Assembly: GCF_002927635.1 (NCBI RefSeq)
Contig: NZ_PRDS01000006.1
Span: 1 to 64,000 of the forward strand
Reading direction: 5' to 3'
From: Albidovulum inexpectatum
Lineage (GTDB): Bacteria > Pseudomonadota > Alphaproteobacteria > Rhodobacterales > Rhodobacteraceae
Length of the DNA: 64,000 nt
Below, in pieces: positions 42,492 through 47,898 of this stretch; positions within the stretch are counted from its first letter, which is position 1; every line of letters begins with the position of its first letter. The notes beneath the pieces were generated by a model. It did no database searches. It had not been told where the DNA came from and worked only from the letters and a program-made list of their open reading frames with translations. A program made the translations under genes and the position numbers.

Positions 42492-42818
42492 ATGATTTTG
42501 TATGGCGTGAAGACCTGCGATACCTGCCGCAAGGCCATGAAGGCCCTTGGCGCGGCTGGGCATGACGTGACCTTCCGCGATGTCCGGGCCGAGCCGCTGG
42601 GGCCCGAAGATATCGATCGCTTTCTGTCGGCCTTTGGCGACAGGCTGGTGAACCGAAGCTCGACGACCTGGCGCGGACTGGACGAATCCGAACGCCAGCG
42701 CCCGGCTGCCGAGTTGCTTGCGAAATACCCGACGCTGATGAAGCGCCCGCTGATCGACGCAGGCGGCACCCTTCATCTGGGATGGACGAAGGACGTGCAG
42801 GCAGCCCTGTTGGGGTGA
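42492..42818 (+). CDS. ArsC/Spx-family thioredoxin-fold protein (YffB-like)
   Basis: The 108-residue protein starts MILYGVKTCDTCRKAM with a CDTC active site (C9, C12), and has the ArsC-family segments DVRAEPLGPEDI and LMKRPLIDAGG. This fits the YffB/ArsC-like glutathione-dependent reductases. The arsenate-specific Arg triad is not fully evident, so arsenate reduction is not assured. It ends 15 bases before a strong bidirectional terminator shared with the cold-shock gene. Confidence 0.82.
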   Translation: MILYGVKTCDTCRKAMKALGAAGHDVTFRDVRAEPLGPEDIDRFLSAFGDRLVNRSSTTWRGLDESERQRPAAELLAKYPTLMKRPLIDAGGTLHLGWTKDVQAALLG

Positions 42819-42833
42819 TTGGCGTGGAATCAA

Positions 42834-42862
42834 AAAGGCCCGCGTTTTACGCGGGCCTTTCC
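42834..42862. terminator. Bidirectional intrinsic terminator
   Basis: A perfect 11-base-pair stem (42834-42844 with 42850-42860, loop TTTTA) has A-tract and T-tract on both sides. It can therefore end both the ArsC-like gene and the convergent cold-shock gene. Confidence 0.9.
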
Positions 42863-42881
42863 ATGCAATTTTGTCTGCAGA

Positions 42882-43088
42882 TCAGAGCAGTTTCAGATCG
42901 CCCGCCGAGCTGCGGCCATCGCGGCCCGACTGAAGCTCGTAGGAAACCTTCTGGTTGTCGTTCAGCGTCGTCAGGCCGGCGCGCTCGACAGCCGAGATGT
43001 GCACGAACACGTCCTTGCCGCCATCATCCGGCGCGATGAAGCCGAAGCCCTTCGTCGAGTTGAACCATTTCACGGTGCCAGTAGCCAT
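42882..43088 (-). CDS. Cold-shock protein (CspA family)
   Basis: This 68-residue single cold-shock domain acts as a nucleic-acid chaperone. RNP1-like KGFGFIAPDD (~13-22) and RNP2-like VFVHISAVE (~27-35) are present, with the start MATGTVKWFNSTKGFGFI. It lies on the opposite strand to the ArsC-like gene and shares its terminator. The 163-base upstream region may contain a long leader, but no distinct cold-box motif was identified. Confidence 0.95.
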   Translation of the reverse strand: MATGTVKWFNSTKGFGFIAPDDGGKDVFVHISAVERAGLTTLNDNQKVSYELQSGRDGRSSAGDLKLL

Positions 43089-43251
43089 CCGCTTTCTCCT
43101 TCGTCAATTTACCCGGGCACCATTGCCCGAGGCCGTGCAGCCAAGTCTTCCAGATAGTCCGGCTGCCCGATTGATCGAGGGAGGCGGTAGGGAATCTTAG
43201 GTCACGTGGGCCTTATCATCGACGTTCGCGCGGGTTTTGCAAGGGCTATTT

Positions 43252-43803
43252 TCAAAAGCGTCGGTCGTCCTTGCGCCGGGTCAGAACCCGATCCAGCGAC
43301 AGCCAGCCACCGCCATGCATTACAAGGATCATGAACAGAAGCATCCAGAAGGCGCGCTGATCCAGGATCAGGGCGTCAGAGGCGCGATCGAACCACTGGC
43401 CCAGATCGGCGCCGGCGACACCATGGCCCCAAATGTCAGTCAGGCTTTGAACGGTCACAAAGCCGATCATGCCCAATGCCGCAAGGCGTGTCAGCAGACC
43501 CAGGACGATCAGCGCGGGAAGGATCAGCTCGGCCCATGTTCCGGCAAGAACGATCAGGCGGTGAAGCAGGCCGAGCTGCGAGAAATCATACCCGACGGAT
43601 TCGACGACCTTTGGCAGCACCTGGATATAGGCTCCGTCCGAAGGCGTCCAAAGCCCGGGGACACCGGGCCCCAGCTTGGTCACGGCCGAGCCCCAGAAAT
43701 AGAACAGAAGGACACCGGCAAAAACGATCCGGGCGGCCAGGGGCAGGGCGCGTGGCGCAATCTGATCCAGAAGACCTGCTGCGCGGCGATACAGGGCAAT
43801 CAT
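43252..43803 (-). CDS. DoxX-family membrane protein (bufferin-operon BufD position)
   Basis: The 183-residue protein has about four hydrophobic helices (ALPLAARIVFAGVLLFYF, LILPALIVLGLLTRLAALGM, and two near the ends) and the DoxX-like WAELILPALIVLGL. In published gold/copper-induced (gig-type) bufferin operons, a DoxX protein is the fourth gene and is thought to act in the membrane. Its ATG overlaps the DUF2063 stop by four bases. It is the last gene of the operon. Confidence 0.85.
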   Translation of the reverse strand: MIALYRRAAGLLDQIAPRALPLAARIVFAGVLLFYFWGSAVTKLGPGVPGLWTPSDGAYIQVLPKVVESVGYDFSQLGLLHRLIVLAGTWAELILPALIVLGLLTRLAALGMIGFVTVQSLTDIWGHGVAGADLGQWFDRASDALILDQRAFWMLLFMILVMHGGGWLSLDRVLTRRKDDRRF

Positions 43804-44543
43804 GCGGAAGTCTCCGTGGCAATGTCGATTATCGCGCCGCCGGACACGAGAAGCGCAAAGGTCGCGTTCAGGTCGAAGTCCCCCGCTGCGTCAAGCGCGG
43901 TGCCGATCGTCTTGCCTTCCGCCAGGGCGGCGATGAACGGCGCGGCGCCCTGTGGCAGAAGATGGGGCTCGGGATCGAATTCCGGCCGCAGGATCAGAAT
44001 GTCCTGCGCTGTCACCGTCCTGGGCGGCGGGGCCTCTTTCATGTTTGCCACCCAGATCGCGTGGATCGGCCAGTCGGAGCGAACCAGTCGTAGCGCCGGC
44101 GCAAGGCGCAGCCGGATATTCGCAAGATCCTGGGGCGGGATGGCGGCAAGACGATCCGGCGCGACGGGTGTGGCGTCGGCTGCATGATAGGATTCGCGCA
44201 GCGCCAGCTCGAGGCGGGCTATGTCGGGCAGATAGGGCAGGTGGGAGACCGGGGGGAAGCGGGCCAGAAAGTCTGGCATGTCGGTTCCGTACAGCATCAG
44301 CAGGGGCGAGCGCGGGGGATGCGCGCGAACATGCTCCAAGGCCATCGCGGCGAAGAATTCTTCTCCGACCAGTTTGCGCAGCACGGGGAATGCAGTCTTC
44401 AAGGCCTCGACCAGCGAAACGGTCACGTTGTTGCGATAGACATTGAAGCGCCTGCCTGCGGGACGTCCCTGCGGGTCGGTCAGGCCCGGCGGGTGGGGGC
44501 GCGAGGGATCCAGCAGGGCGGCGCGGAAATCGGCCTGTCTCAT
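43800..44543 (-). CDS. DUF2063 protein, bufferin-maturation partner (BufC-like)
   Basis: The 247-residue protein begins [20 protein letters not shown] and has the DUF2063 N-terminal helical domain ([20 protein letters not shown]), [21 protein letters not shown], and a C-terminal domain. In bufferin and related systems this protein binds the peptide substrate and works with the DUF692 enzyme. Overlaps of four bases with both neighbours indicate translational coupling. Confidence 0.87.
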
Positions 44544-45394
44544 GCGGTAACCCGGTCCAGAATGCGCGCGGCCCTTTCGGCCTCGTCGGCCAGGACCGGC
44601 CAGTCGGGCACGTCATTGTCCCATTCGATTAGGGTCGCCAGGGGTCCGGCGCGGGAAATCGTGCGTTCGTAAAGCTGCCAGACCGGATCGACGACCGGAT
44701 GGGCATGGGAATCGATCAGCAGCGGCGCGCCGGCATCGTCGACGTCTTCGTCGTGGCCACCAAGATGGATTTCCCCGACGAGATCGATCGGGAATCGATC
44801 GATGTAATCCCGGGCATCCGTCTGGCGGTTCGTGCATGAGACATGAACGTTGTTGACGTCCAGAAGCAGACCGCATCCGGTGCGCGACGCGATTTCGCTC
44901 AGGAATTCGATCTCGCCCAGATTGCTTTCGGCAAAGTCGAGATACACGGACGGGTTTTCCAGCAGCATCTTGCGGCCAAGCCGTGTCTGCACCTCGTCGA
45001 CATGGGCGCAGACCCGGGCAAGCGTCTCCTCGGTATAGGGTAGAGGCAGAAGGTCGTTCAGGAACTCGGCGTCATGCGTCGACCAGGCAAGATGTTCGGA
45101 AAAGCTGGCGGGTTGCAGCCAGTCGCAAAGCCGCCGCAGGCGGTCCAGATGGTCGCGGTCCAGTGGCCCTTCGCCCCCGATGGACAGGCCGACGCCGTGA
45201 ACCGAGATCGGGAACCGTTCGGCCAGGTGACGCAGTTGGGCGATGGGGCGGCCGCCTTCCCCCATGTAGTTTTCAGCGTGGATCTCGAGCCAGCGCACGG
45301 GCCCCGGGTCCTGCATCAGCGCGGTGAAATGTTGGGGCTTGTAGCCAACACCCGGGGCAGGGGGCAGGCCGGGCTCGGTTTGTCTGTCCAGCAT
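44540..45394 (-). CDS. DUF692 multinuclear iron enzyme (MNIO), BufB-like
   Basis: The 284-residue TIM-barrel protein belongs to the DUF692/MbnB family, whose multinuclear non-haem iron oxygen-dependent enzymes convert cysteine residues of peptides to thiooxazole-type groups. Metal-ligand-bearing motifs are visible: [55 protein letters not shown] and DSHAHPV. It lies 60 bases after the DUF2282 gene and is coupled to the DUF2063 gene. The reaction is taken from family knowledge, not demonstrated here. Confidence 0.92.
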
Positions 45395-45454
45395 GTCGTG
45401 TTCTCCTGCAGGCGGATGGTGTCGGGGCGCCCTGCGAAAGGGCGCCCCGGTTCT

Positions 45455-45754
45455 TCAGCCCCGCGGCAGATCGCGGTCCAGCGGCTCCAGCGATCCGGTG
45501 CGGCCGTCAGGCAGTTCCATCGTGGTGCATGTGCCGGCTGGTACGAGTTTCCAGGCGTTGCCCTGATAGTCCACCTTCGAGGTACCGGCACAGGTCGTGC
45601 CCGGCCCGGCCGCGCAATCGTTCTGGCCGGCGAGCGCCACGCCATAGCACTTTTCCTTGGCTTCTTGCGCGGCAGCGGGCGTTGCGCCATGCGCTGAAAG
45701 GGCGGCTGCAAGCGAACCGGCAACGGCGAGCGTCTTGATCGAATTGGACATCAT
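45455..45754 (-). CDS. DUF2282 peptide precursor (bufferin, BufA1-like)
   Basis: The 99-residue precursor starts with a Sec-type signal (~1-30, ...GATPAAAQ). The mature part holds four cysteines (C36, C47, C55, C76) in the pattern [25 protein letters not shown], which matches the DUF2282 bufferin precursor. Bufferins are periplasmic RiPPs whose cysteines are modified by the DUF692 enzyme and which bind copper. The first in-frame ATG (45754) and the next (45751) are both possible, behind AAGGA. It is the first gene of the operon. Confidence 0.93.
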
Positions 45755-45794
45755 GTGTTCCTTCGGTTGGTTGTAAGCGAAATTGATCTGGATC

Positions 45795-45806
45795 GTGTCG
45801 CGACAC
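45795..45806. promoter_or_regulatory. 12-base perfect palindrome in the bufferin-operon promoter region
   Basis: GTGTCG-CGACAC lies 41 bases upstream of the DUF2282 start, between it and the thrS terminator. It is a plausible operator, but no matching regulator was identified. A search for the GTAACC-type SigF motif reported for Caulobacter bufferin operons gave no clear match by eye. Confidence 0.35.
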
Positions 45807-45890
45807 AGGCAAGCTAACCTGCGGCGTGATGACGCGCCACTCACGAAGGCGTGCCCCACGGCCCTGTGACGGGTTGTAACATCTTGCACG

Positions 45891-45925
45891 AAACAGGGCG
45901 CGCCCGCTGCCGAGCGCGCCCCTGT
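45891..45925 (-). terminator. Terminator after thrS
   Basis: On the minus strand a GC-rich stem (ACAGG-GGCGCGC paired with GCGCGCCCTGT, one bulge, ~45893-45925) is followed by TTTC. It begins about 20 bases after the thrS stop and separates thrS from the bufferin operon. Confidence 0.7.
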
Positions 45926-45945
45926 CGTGGTCATGCGATCCGTCG

Positions 45946-47898
45946 TCAGACCGCGCGCAGGTCCGGCGGCGTGGCCTCGGCCTTGAAGCCGGCGATCGCC
46001 TCTTCCAGCGGTACGGTCTGGGTGCGGTTCTCGCCCAGACGGCGGATCGAGACGGTGCGCTCGGCCACCTCCTTCATGCCGATGGCAAGGATCGCCGGGA
46101 CCTTGCCGACGGAATGTTCCCGCACCTTGTAGTTGATCTTTTCGTTGCGCGTGTCGGCTTCGGCGCGGATGCCGGCCTGGGTCAGTTTCTCGACGACCTC
46201 ATGCACATAGGGATCGGCGTCCGAGACGATCGAGGCCACGACGACCTGACGGGGGGCCAGCCAGAAGGGCAGCTTGCCCGCATAGTTCTCGATCAGGATG
46301 CCGATGAAGCGCTCGAACGACCCGAGGATCGCGCGGTGCAGCATGACGGGACGGTGCTTCGCGCCGTCTTCCCCCACATATTCCGCGCCCAGGCGAACCG
46401 GCAGGTTGAAGTCGCACTGGAACGTGCCGCACTGCCATTCGCGACCGATCGCATCGGTCAGGGTGAAGTCCAGCTTGGGGCCATAGAAGGCGCCGTCGCC
46501 CGGATTGATCGCATAGGGCAGGCCCAGCCCCTCGATCGCCTTCTGCAAGGCACCTTCGGCCTTGTCCCAGATCGCGTCCGAGCCCACGCGGACCTCGGGC
46601 CGGGTGGACAGGCGGATGTCGAATTTCGTGAAGCCCAGATCGGCATAGACCGAGGACAGAAGCGCGATGAAGTCGGCGCATTCCTTTTCGATCTGGTCCT
46701 CGGTGCAGAAGATATGCGCATCGTCCTGCACGAAACCGCGTACCCGCATCAGACCGTGCATCGAGCCCGAGCTTTCATAGCGGTGGCACGAACCGAACTC
46801 GGCCAGACGCAGCGGCAGATCGCGATAGGATTTCAGGCCCTGATTGTAGACCTGGACATGGCAGGGGCAGTTCATCGGCTTCAACGCATTGATGCGCTTT
46901 TCGCGCGCGCCTTCCTCGTCGACCTCGACGATGAACATGTTCTCGCGATAGGCTTCCCAATGGCCCGATCGTTCCCACAGGATGCGGTCGACGACCTGCG
47001 GGGTGCGGATTTCCTGGTATCCCGCGCGGCGCAGCCGGCGGCGCATGTAGTCTTCCAGCGTGCGGTAGATCGTCCAGCCATTGGGGTGCCAGAAAACCAT
47101 TCCCGGCGCTTCCTCCTGCAGATGGAACAGCTCCATCTCGCGTCCCAGACGCCGGTGGTCGCGCTTGGCGGCCTCTTCCAGCATGTGCAGATAGGCTTTC
47201 AGGTCGTCGCGGTTGCGGAAGGCCACGCCATAGATGCGCTGCAGCTGTTTGTTGCGGTGATCCCCGCGCCAATAGGCGCCCGCGACCGACATCAGCTTGA
47301 ACGCATCCGCCGGCAGCTGACCGGTATTCTGCAGGTGCGGGCCCCGGCACAGGTCCTGCCAGTTGCCGTGCCAGTACATGCGCACGGGTTCATCCTCGGG
47401 GATGGCCTCGATCAGTTCGACCTTGAAGGGTTCGTTCTTGCGGATGTAGTGCTCGATCGCGCGCGACCGGTCCCAGACTTCGGTGCGCACGGGTTCGCGC
47501 GCGGCGATGATGGCGCGCATCTCCTTTTCGATCAGCGCCAGATCCTCGGGCGTGAAGGGTTCGTCGCGGTCGAAGTCGTAGTACCAGCCGTTTTCCACGA
47601 CCGGGCCGATCGTGACCTTGACGTCGGGCCACAGTTTCTGAACCGCCGCCGCCATGACATGGGCAAAGTCGTGGCGGATCAGCTCCAGCGCCTGGGGCTC
47701 GTCCTTCATCGTGTGGATGGTGATCGTGCCGTCTTCGGTGATGGGCCATTGCAGGTCCCAGTGGCGGCCGTTGAACGTGGCCGAGATCGCGGCCTTGCCC
47801 AGCGAAGGCGCGATGGCGCGCGCGACTTCTGCGGCGGTCACGCCCCGCTCGAAACTGCGGCTGCTGCCATCGGGAAAGGTCAGGGTAATCTGGGTCAT
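45946..47898 (-). CDS. thrS: Threonyl-tRNA synthetase
   Basis: ThrS charges tRNA-Thr and edits serine mischarging. The 650 residues comprise the N-terminal TGS domain ([20 protein letters not shown]), the editing domain with [12 protein letters not shown], the class II core with the zinc motif [29 protein letters not shown] and DDAHIFC, and the C-terminal anticodon domain. Length is normal. It diverges from the alpha/beta hydrolase gene, with a 215-base intergenic region in which no T-box or other leader structure was recognised. Confidence 0.97.

Follow-up and report, generated by a model that had tools for sequence, protein, structure and literature searches.

The window analysed here is a stretch of 64,000 nucleotides (nt), positions 1 to 64,000 of contig NZ_PRDS01000006.1 of Albidovulum inexpectatum. 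Its minus strand carries a Buf1-type bufferin operon, bufA1-bufB-bufC-doxX, an identity that our searches confirmed, with an operator-like tandem palindrome upstream of bufA1 and a hairpin between bufA1 and bufB (Table 1). All four products score above the cut-offs of their Pfam families, with a thin margin for doxX (25.3 vs 23.6 bits). Therefore, the order DUF2282-DUF692-DUF2063-DoxX on one strand, read from the bare sequence in a preliminary description of the locus, was upheld, as was the identification of the small gene as a DUF2282 gene with four cysteines. The 4-base overlaps reported there among the last three genes are found at 44540-44543 (bufB/bufC) and 43800-43803 (bufC/doxX). The operon holds all four genes (precursor, MNIO, DUF2063 and DoxX) that excerpts of PMC12452194 list as the core of a bufferin cluster; DoxX accompanies many, though not all, such clusters.

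Table 1. Coordinates of the operon, its control features and its upstream neighbour in the window (aa, amino acids; ORF, open reading frame).
Feature	Position	Strand	Description	Basis
bufA1	45455-45754	-	DUF2282 precursor, 99 aa, ATGATG start	PF10048 93 bits, cut-off 22.4
bufB	44540-45394	-	MNIO enzyme (formerly DUF692), bufferin maturase, 284 aa	PF05114 351 bits, cut-off 25
bufC	43800-44543	-	DUF2063 partner protein, 247 aa	PF09836 97.7 bits, cut-off 27.2
doxX	43252-43803	-	DoxX-family membrane protein, 183 aa, last gene of the operon	PF07681 25.3 bits, cut-off 23.6
Operator-like tandem palindrome	45841-45868	-	CACA-N4-CGTG-N3-CACG-N4-CGTGA, then GTGG	pattern and weight-matrix tests
Putative core promoter	45811-45840	-	GTGG (-35 side), TAGCTT as -10, 18-bp spacer	column conservation, 45 aligned sites
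Intercistronic hairpin	45423-45449	-	perfect 11-bp stem, TTCGC loop, not followed by a T-run	stem search
thrS (threonyl-tRNA synthetase)	45946-47898	-	upstream neighbour, outside the system	ORF, name from sequence alone

The four cysteines of BufA1 are spaced 10-7-20, a spacing that the last four cysteines share in every bufA1 gene of the named loci (83/83), and its N-terminus appears Sec-like by eye. Besides the Pfam model PF05114 (MbnB_TglH_ChrH), BufB clears the NCBIfam model MNIO_BufB with 379.5 bits against a cut-off of 310, in agreement with the enzyme family first proposed. The operon proteins stayed below the NCBIfam cut-offs for HvfB (227.7 bits vs 360), HvfC (bufC, 50.2 vs 142), HvfX (doxX, 24.9 vs 80) and Cu_RiPP_BufA2 (20.7 vs 60). 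Profile searches found a single MNIO gene and a single DUF2282 gene in the whole genome. The BufB sequence aligns with the PDB chains 3bww, 8hci (TglH) and 7dz9 (MbnB), and its agreement with the solved MNIO proteins includes stretches around several His, Asp, Glu and Asn residues, among which we presume the iron ligands to lie. For bufC, whose counterparts in Buf1 operons combine DUF2063 with an RRE-type domain, a PDB sequence search gave no match up to E 0.1. Judged from sequence, the peptide with its enzymes is an ordinary member of the known bufferin cassette.

The operon was compared with 80 loci of named relatives; together with 6 plasmid loci they make a set of 86. Among the loci inspected by eye some genomes occur twice (e.g., L008 and L041). 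By tblastn, which registers presence only, bufC was matched in 80/80 and doxX in 78/80 named relatives, so the four-gene set is not a chance arrangement. In both loci lacking doxX (L056 and L078) the contig stops within ~900 nt of bufB. Among the 61 surrounding genomes searched, DUF2282 was found in 40, including 19 of the 22 within the genus (own genome counted), and MNIO in 41. The nearest named relatives of BufB include Defluviimonas and Frigidibacter, in a list that may omit records very close to the A. inexpectatum genome itself.

In Caulobacter, according to passages of PMC3511200, DUF2282 operons are controlled by the sigma factor SigF and its inhibitor NrsF via GTAACC-N16-CGAA. The A. 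inexpectatum genome has no match to NrsF (PF06532) in a search that finds NrsF in the Caulobacter control, and the SigF-like pattern GTAAC[AC]-N15-17-CGAA does not occur in the 260 nt ahead of its bufA1 (locus L002). NrsF was present in 7/61 genomes searched and in 1/22 genomes of the genus, G020, where it lies close to bufA1. Among the named loci, nrsF was within the fetched stretch in 6/80; the SigF-like pattern was seen in 4 of these 6, i.e., some are missed by the pattern. SigF/NrsF as the controller of the present operon was rejected for lack of both an NrsF match and a SigF-like promoter pattern.

The gap between thrS and bufA1 contains instead an element that reads CACAGGGCCGTG GGG CACGCCTTCGTGA (45841-45868), i.e., a CACR-N4-YGTG palindrome that occurs twice, at a period of 15 bp. 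The preliminary description had ended the system at 45806, which is ~50 nt ahead of the first codon of bufA1; this boundary cuts through the promoter region and leaves the element outside. The element was first spotted by eye in the loci of the genus and thereafter tested in three ways. An exact-pattern search of 41 genomes, 22 of them from the genus, found the element at one place in the A. inexpectatum genome and at one place per genome in 14/22 genomes of the genus, all ahead of bufA1 by coordinates, while the backward-read control pattern did not occur in the 41 genomes. Of the eight genomes of the genus with no exact match, three have no DUF2282 match, one is the nrsF genome G020, and four (G001, G002, G005 and G010) carry near-variants of the element. 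When 1-2 mismatches were allowed, ten other places appeared in the A. inexpectatum genome. Nine of them overlap ORFs of at least 80 aa, some of which may be spurious in such GC-rich DNA, and the tenth (L131, 2 mismatches) falls between the ends of two convergent genes.

For the second test a weight matrix was built from 14 loci of the genus and applied to both strands of each whole locus (mean 12,010 nt). It was run on 71 of the 80 named loci, leaving out 8 near loci and L116; the 71 were taken as outside the genus by judgement from their names. The best match of the matrix fell within 260 nt ahead of bufA1 in 55/71 loci, compared to ~1.5 expected from the lengths. The 16 misses contain all 5 nrsF loci of the test. 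The third test used a directional pattern that was stricter and ended in RTRG; it occurred in 48/295 genomes of the family, once in each, and its reversed control in 0/295. In 45 of the 48 cases bufA1 was downstream, and its first Cys codon came 193-234 nt after the first base matched.

A relaxed pattern applied to all 86 loci found the element in 58, linked nrsF in 10 and both together in none (thus, 0/10 of the loci with linked nrsF carry the element). Since this pattern is lax and was run with no shuffled control, we put weight on the other three tests. As to the plasmid loci, the four annotated operons (L215, L216, L217 and L219) have sigma factor and DUF1109 genes, and no adjoining regulator beyond these except for a histidine kinase in L215. 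Of the unannotated plasmid records, L220 has thrS and the element, and L218 has neither.

Alignment of 45 sites revealed conservation outside the bases fixed by the pattern: a T two bases ahead of ACR (43/45), an A after the first YGTG (34/45) and, 20 bases past RTGG, a weaker C[TA]A (C in 31/45, T or A in 43/45, A in 29/45). If RTGG marks the -35 side and the -10 box begins with C[TA]A, the spacer would be 18 bp long. The downstream palindrome would then be centred near -43 of the presumed start, the position of a class II activator.

The second control feature is the hairpin between bufA1 and bufB, surveyed with tblastn-derived bufB starts in 79 of the 80 named loci (the L116 contig begins inside bufA1). 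The median length of the longest perfect stem was 9 bp, compared to an average of 4.5 bp in shuffled gaps, the shuffles preserving base composition only. A perfect stem of at least 9 bp was found in 48/79 loci, while the stretch of equal length before bufA1 had one in 0/79. There were 45 distinct arms among these 48 stems; therefore, the pairing has been kept while the sequence changed. The gap also has a perfect stem of 8-11 pairs in 10/10 nrsF loci. The annotated nrsF plasmid operons, with stems of 8, 9, 11 and 9 bp, show that the hairpin is independent of the promoter type, the 8 pairs of L215 being equalled by 8/200 shuffles.

Loci of Tropicimonas and Aliiruegeria (L053, L055, L060; also L026) have two tandem bufA1 genes ahead of one bufB. 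In three of these tandem-precursor loci only 3-5 pairs are formed by the stems that separate the precursor genes, and after the second precursor there are 9, 5 and 10 pairs in L053, L055 and L060, respectively. In Actibacterium sp. 188UL27-1 (L071/L167) the element occupies the bufA1-bufB gap, where it follows a 9-bp hairpin, and a degenerate form is additionally present upstream of bufA1; bufBC-doxX may have a promoter of its own in this strain.

On the observed genes, families and gene order, the positions and conservation of the element and the lack of an NrsF match, we propose that the operon makes a copper bufferin outside SigF/NrsF control, under an activator with nearly a single target, the palindrome, and with a hairpin that favours the precursor; we give this joint reading a probability of about 0.7. 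A candidate regulator would bind the tandem palindrome, which abuts the -35 region in the manner of a class II activator site, and would switch on the operon, its main or only target, in response to a metal signal; transcription would proceed without the SigF/NrsF system of Caulobacter. The hairpin past bufA1 probably shields the message or causes part of it to end there, favouring the precursor message over that of the enzymes, so that more precursor than enzyme would be made. A broader statement, that bufferin production in Rhodobacteraceae is mostly off SigF/NrsF, with an unlinked, nearly dedicated regulator reading the CACR-N4-YGTG tandem and the hairpin setting the ratio of peptide to enzyme, is offered tentatively, at slightly less than even odds.

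As for the product, excerpts of PMC12452194 describe how thiooxazoles derived from cysteines of Caulobacter Buf1 chelate Cu(I) and Cu(II), the central cysteines being modified and the outer two joined as a disulphide. By analogy, BufA1 would be made with a Sec signal; BufB, an iron enzyme, and BufC would turn the two middle cysteines into thiooxazoles; and the peptide would be exported, form a disulphide from its outer cysteine pair and buffer copper in the periplasm. A modified copper-binding periplasmic peptide is thus a fair inference.

Several observations weigh against the proposed reading of the operon and its control. The undirected exact pattern also occurs in the distant genome G046, inside an unrelated ORF, and among the 55 matches of the weight matrix there are low-scoring ones of 4.8-6.4 bits (L069, L096, L055). 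Exact matching catches just 48/295 genomes of the family, the 295 being taken irrespective of whether they have bufA1; two of these matches (L181 and L197) are inside ORFs with no bufA1 nearby, and a third (L167) sits in the bufA1-bufB gap, in the same stretch as L071. By the relaxed pattern, 28/86 loci have no element, and 18 of these 28, including one at the edge of a contig, have no nrsF either; degenerate forms of the element were seen by eye in several element-less loci. All sites come from related species, and the counts are not independent. With respect to the hairpin, 31/79 loci have no perfect stem as long as 9 bp, and single shuffles attain at least 9 bp in some loci. Furthermore, no recurring transcription-factor family adjoins the operon among the ORF clusters listed for the 80 named loci (a rough clustering, with antisense ORFs included), and no match of the element elsewhere in the genome pointed to a regulator gene. 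Finally, a scan with the sigma-70 consensus finds no promoter in the thrS-bufA1 gap, and the gap has no T-run terminator; read-through from thrS is therefore possible.

The same lack of a consensus promoter fits an activator-dependent promoter, without demonstrating one, and it bears on the choice between activation and repression. Two adjacent palindromes against the presumed -35 side would suit a protein that covers the promoter, so the element could be a repressor operator at which two dimers block the -35 region until copper or another stress frees it. We consider this rather unlikely: the missing consensus -35/-10 is better suited to activation, and the element stops just ahead of RTGG, leaving the presumed -10 uncovered. 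Constitutive expression by read-through, with the element a relic or serving some other role, is in our view improbable. On the one hand, the thrS match ends at most 400 nt upstream of bufA1, on the same strand, in 57/86 loci (tblastn), and no T-run terminator separates the two genes. On the other hand, the position of the element is nearly fixed while its flanks diverge, and the element occurs in 14 loci where no thrS was found within 400 nt, bearing in mind that a tblastn match can stop short. Activation at the tandem palindrome is the reading we prefer.

The other two parts of the proposed reading have rivals as well. The product could serve another metal or oxidative stress rather than copper buffering, given the response of a gig operon to both gold and copper (excerpts of PMC5413113) and a control region here that is unlike that of Caulobacter; still, the peptide family, the four cysteines and the enzyme set are shared with the copper-binding Caulobacter Buf1 (passages of PMC12452194), which makes this alternative unlikely. 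The rival account of the hairpin, as an ordinary weak terminator or protector of the mRNA end with no role specific to the system, is a stronger contender, to which we give somewhat less than an even chance, since such hairpins are common between genes of differing dosage. Against it stand the retention of the stem in place in most loci, with a changed yet paired sequence, and the contrast in tandem-precursor loci between the gap separating the precursors and the one after the second precursor.

Known regulators were also looked for. CsoR control was rejected, as the A. inexpectatum genome has no match to PF02583. For the CueR model the best match in the genome had 91 bits, under the cut-off of 147.4; CueR could still act here, but the tandem palindrome is unlike CueR sites. 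The C-terminal domain of the OmpR type had 8 matches above the cut-off in the genome, none of which could be linked to the element. Among the neighbours of the operon an ArsR-like fusion was seen in 11 loci.

A few observations on genomes and neighbours are given for completeness. Three genomes of the genus (G007, G008 and G014) matched neither DUF2282 nor MNIO; a CsoR-type match, which A. inexpectatum lacks, was found in G007 (completeness listed as 100%) and in G008, and G011 has DUF2282 together with a CsoR-type match carrying an internal stop (the CsoR search did not include G014). The bufA1 proteins of L030, L089 and L117 are 127, 123 and 114 aa long, compared to the usual 95-102, with the extra ~15-30 residues at the C-terminal end. 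The plasmid of Paracoccus liaowanqingii (L215) has a 1167-nt DoxX-family gene followed by a thioredoxin gene, the sigma factor and DUF1109; its histidine kinase gene is upstream of the operon, and insertion sequence (IS) element genes are close by. Since thrS is found in the same place in 57/86 loci, this position of the operon is old in the family. On the other side, the operon is followed by a cold-shock-type gene (42882-43088), where the Rfam cspA thermoregulator has a match (42831-43257, minus strand) below threshold, 57.3 bits compared to a gathering score of 78. An Rfam scan of 42800-46000 gave four matches, all below gathering and all around the cold-shock gene.

The peptide and its enzymes are of an already known kind; the tandem-palindrome switch, in place of the sigma-factor control of some related operons, appears new. 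No account of the element or the hairpin was found among the matches listed in open-access full-text searches, which did not cover the founding PNAS 2024 bufferin paper. In PMC12452194, the passages on regulation mention only sigma factors and NrsF, and the words 'stem' and 'hairpin' do not occur. Within this literature, the earlier suggestion that the regulation is likely uncharacterised finds support.

The copper-handling peptides called bufferins form a very large family that was described recently, and the literature examined, parts of the cited papers, gives a single control system for them, SigF/NrsF. A sharply conserved element with nearly a single target, found in a large family of bacteria, offers a handle for isolating the sensor that governs bufferin production, and an identified sensor would allow testing which metal or stress bufferins answer. 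If the broader statement on Rhodobacteraceae is true, its regulator would add a new system for sensing a metal or a stress.

Known related systems give a frame of comparison. The oxazolin/captophorin systems (HvfABCX, FonABC) combine an MNIO with a partner protein, as here, and excerpts of PMC12668002 place these Cu-associated thiooxazole peptides, DUF2282 precursors included, in one group, the captophorins. Their own precursors are of the EGKCG type, whereas the present one is a DUF2282 protein and the cut-offs for HvfB, HvfC and HvfX were not reached. The gig operons, too, are bufferin gene clusters according to passages of PMC12452194, which makes those of Cupriavidus metallidurans and Legionella akin to the present operon. 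The preliminary description had placed the name gig in Caulobacter; according to excerpts of PMC5413113, it belongs to the C. metallidurans operon.

The closest counterpart in composition is the Buf1 operon CC3254-CC3257 of Caulobacter vibrioides/crescentus, which agrees in all four families and in their order (excerpts of PMC3511200) and has a precursor that is likewise a DUF2282 protein with four cysteines and a signal peptide (excerpts of PMC12452194). The likeness to Caulobacter drawn at the outset therefore stands for families and gene order and fails for regulation: the A. inexpectatum operon has no NrsF match, a tandem palindrome replaces GTAACC-N16-CGAA in a differently built control region, and thrS adjoins. 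The nrsF-linked operons of Rhodobacteraceae (L046, L047, L059, L065, L068 and L098), as well as those of the Paracoccus plasmids (L215-L217) and of a Shinella plasmid (L219), have bufB, bufC and DUF2282 as here. Unlike the present operon, these ten have an NrsF/DUF1109 gene nearby and no tandem palindrome. Since the two promoter types were found together in none of the loci studied, this comparison suggests a rewiring of the same enzyme cassette.

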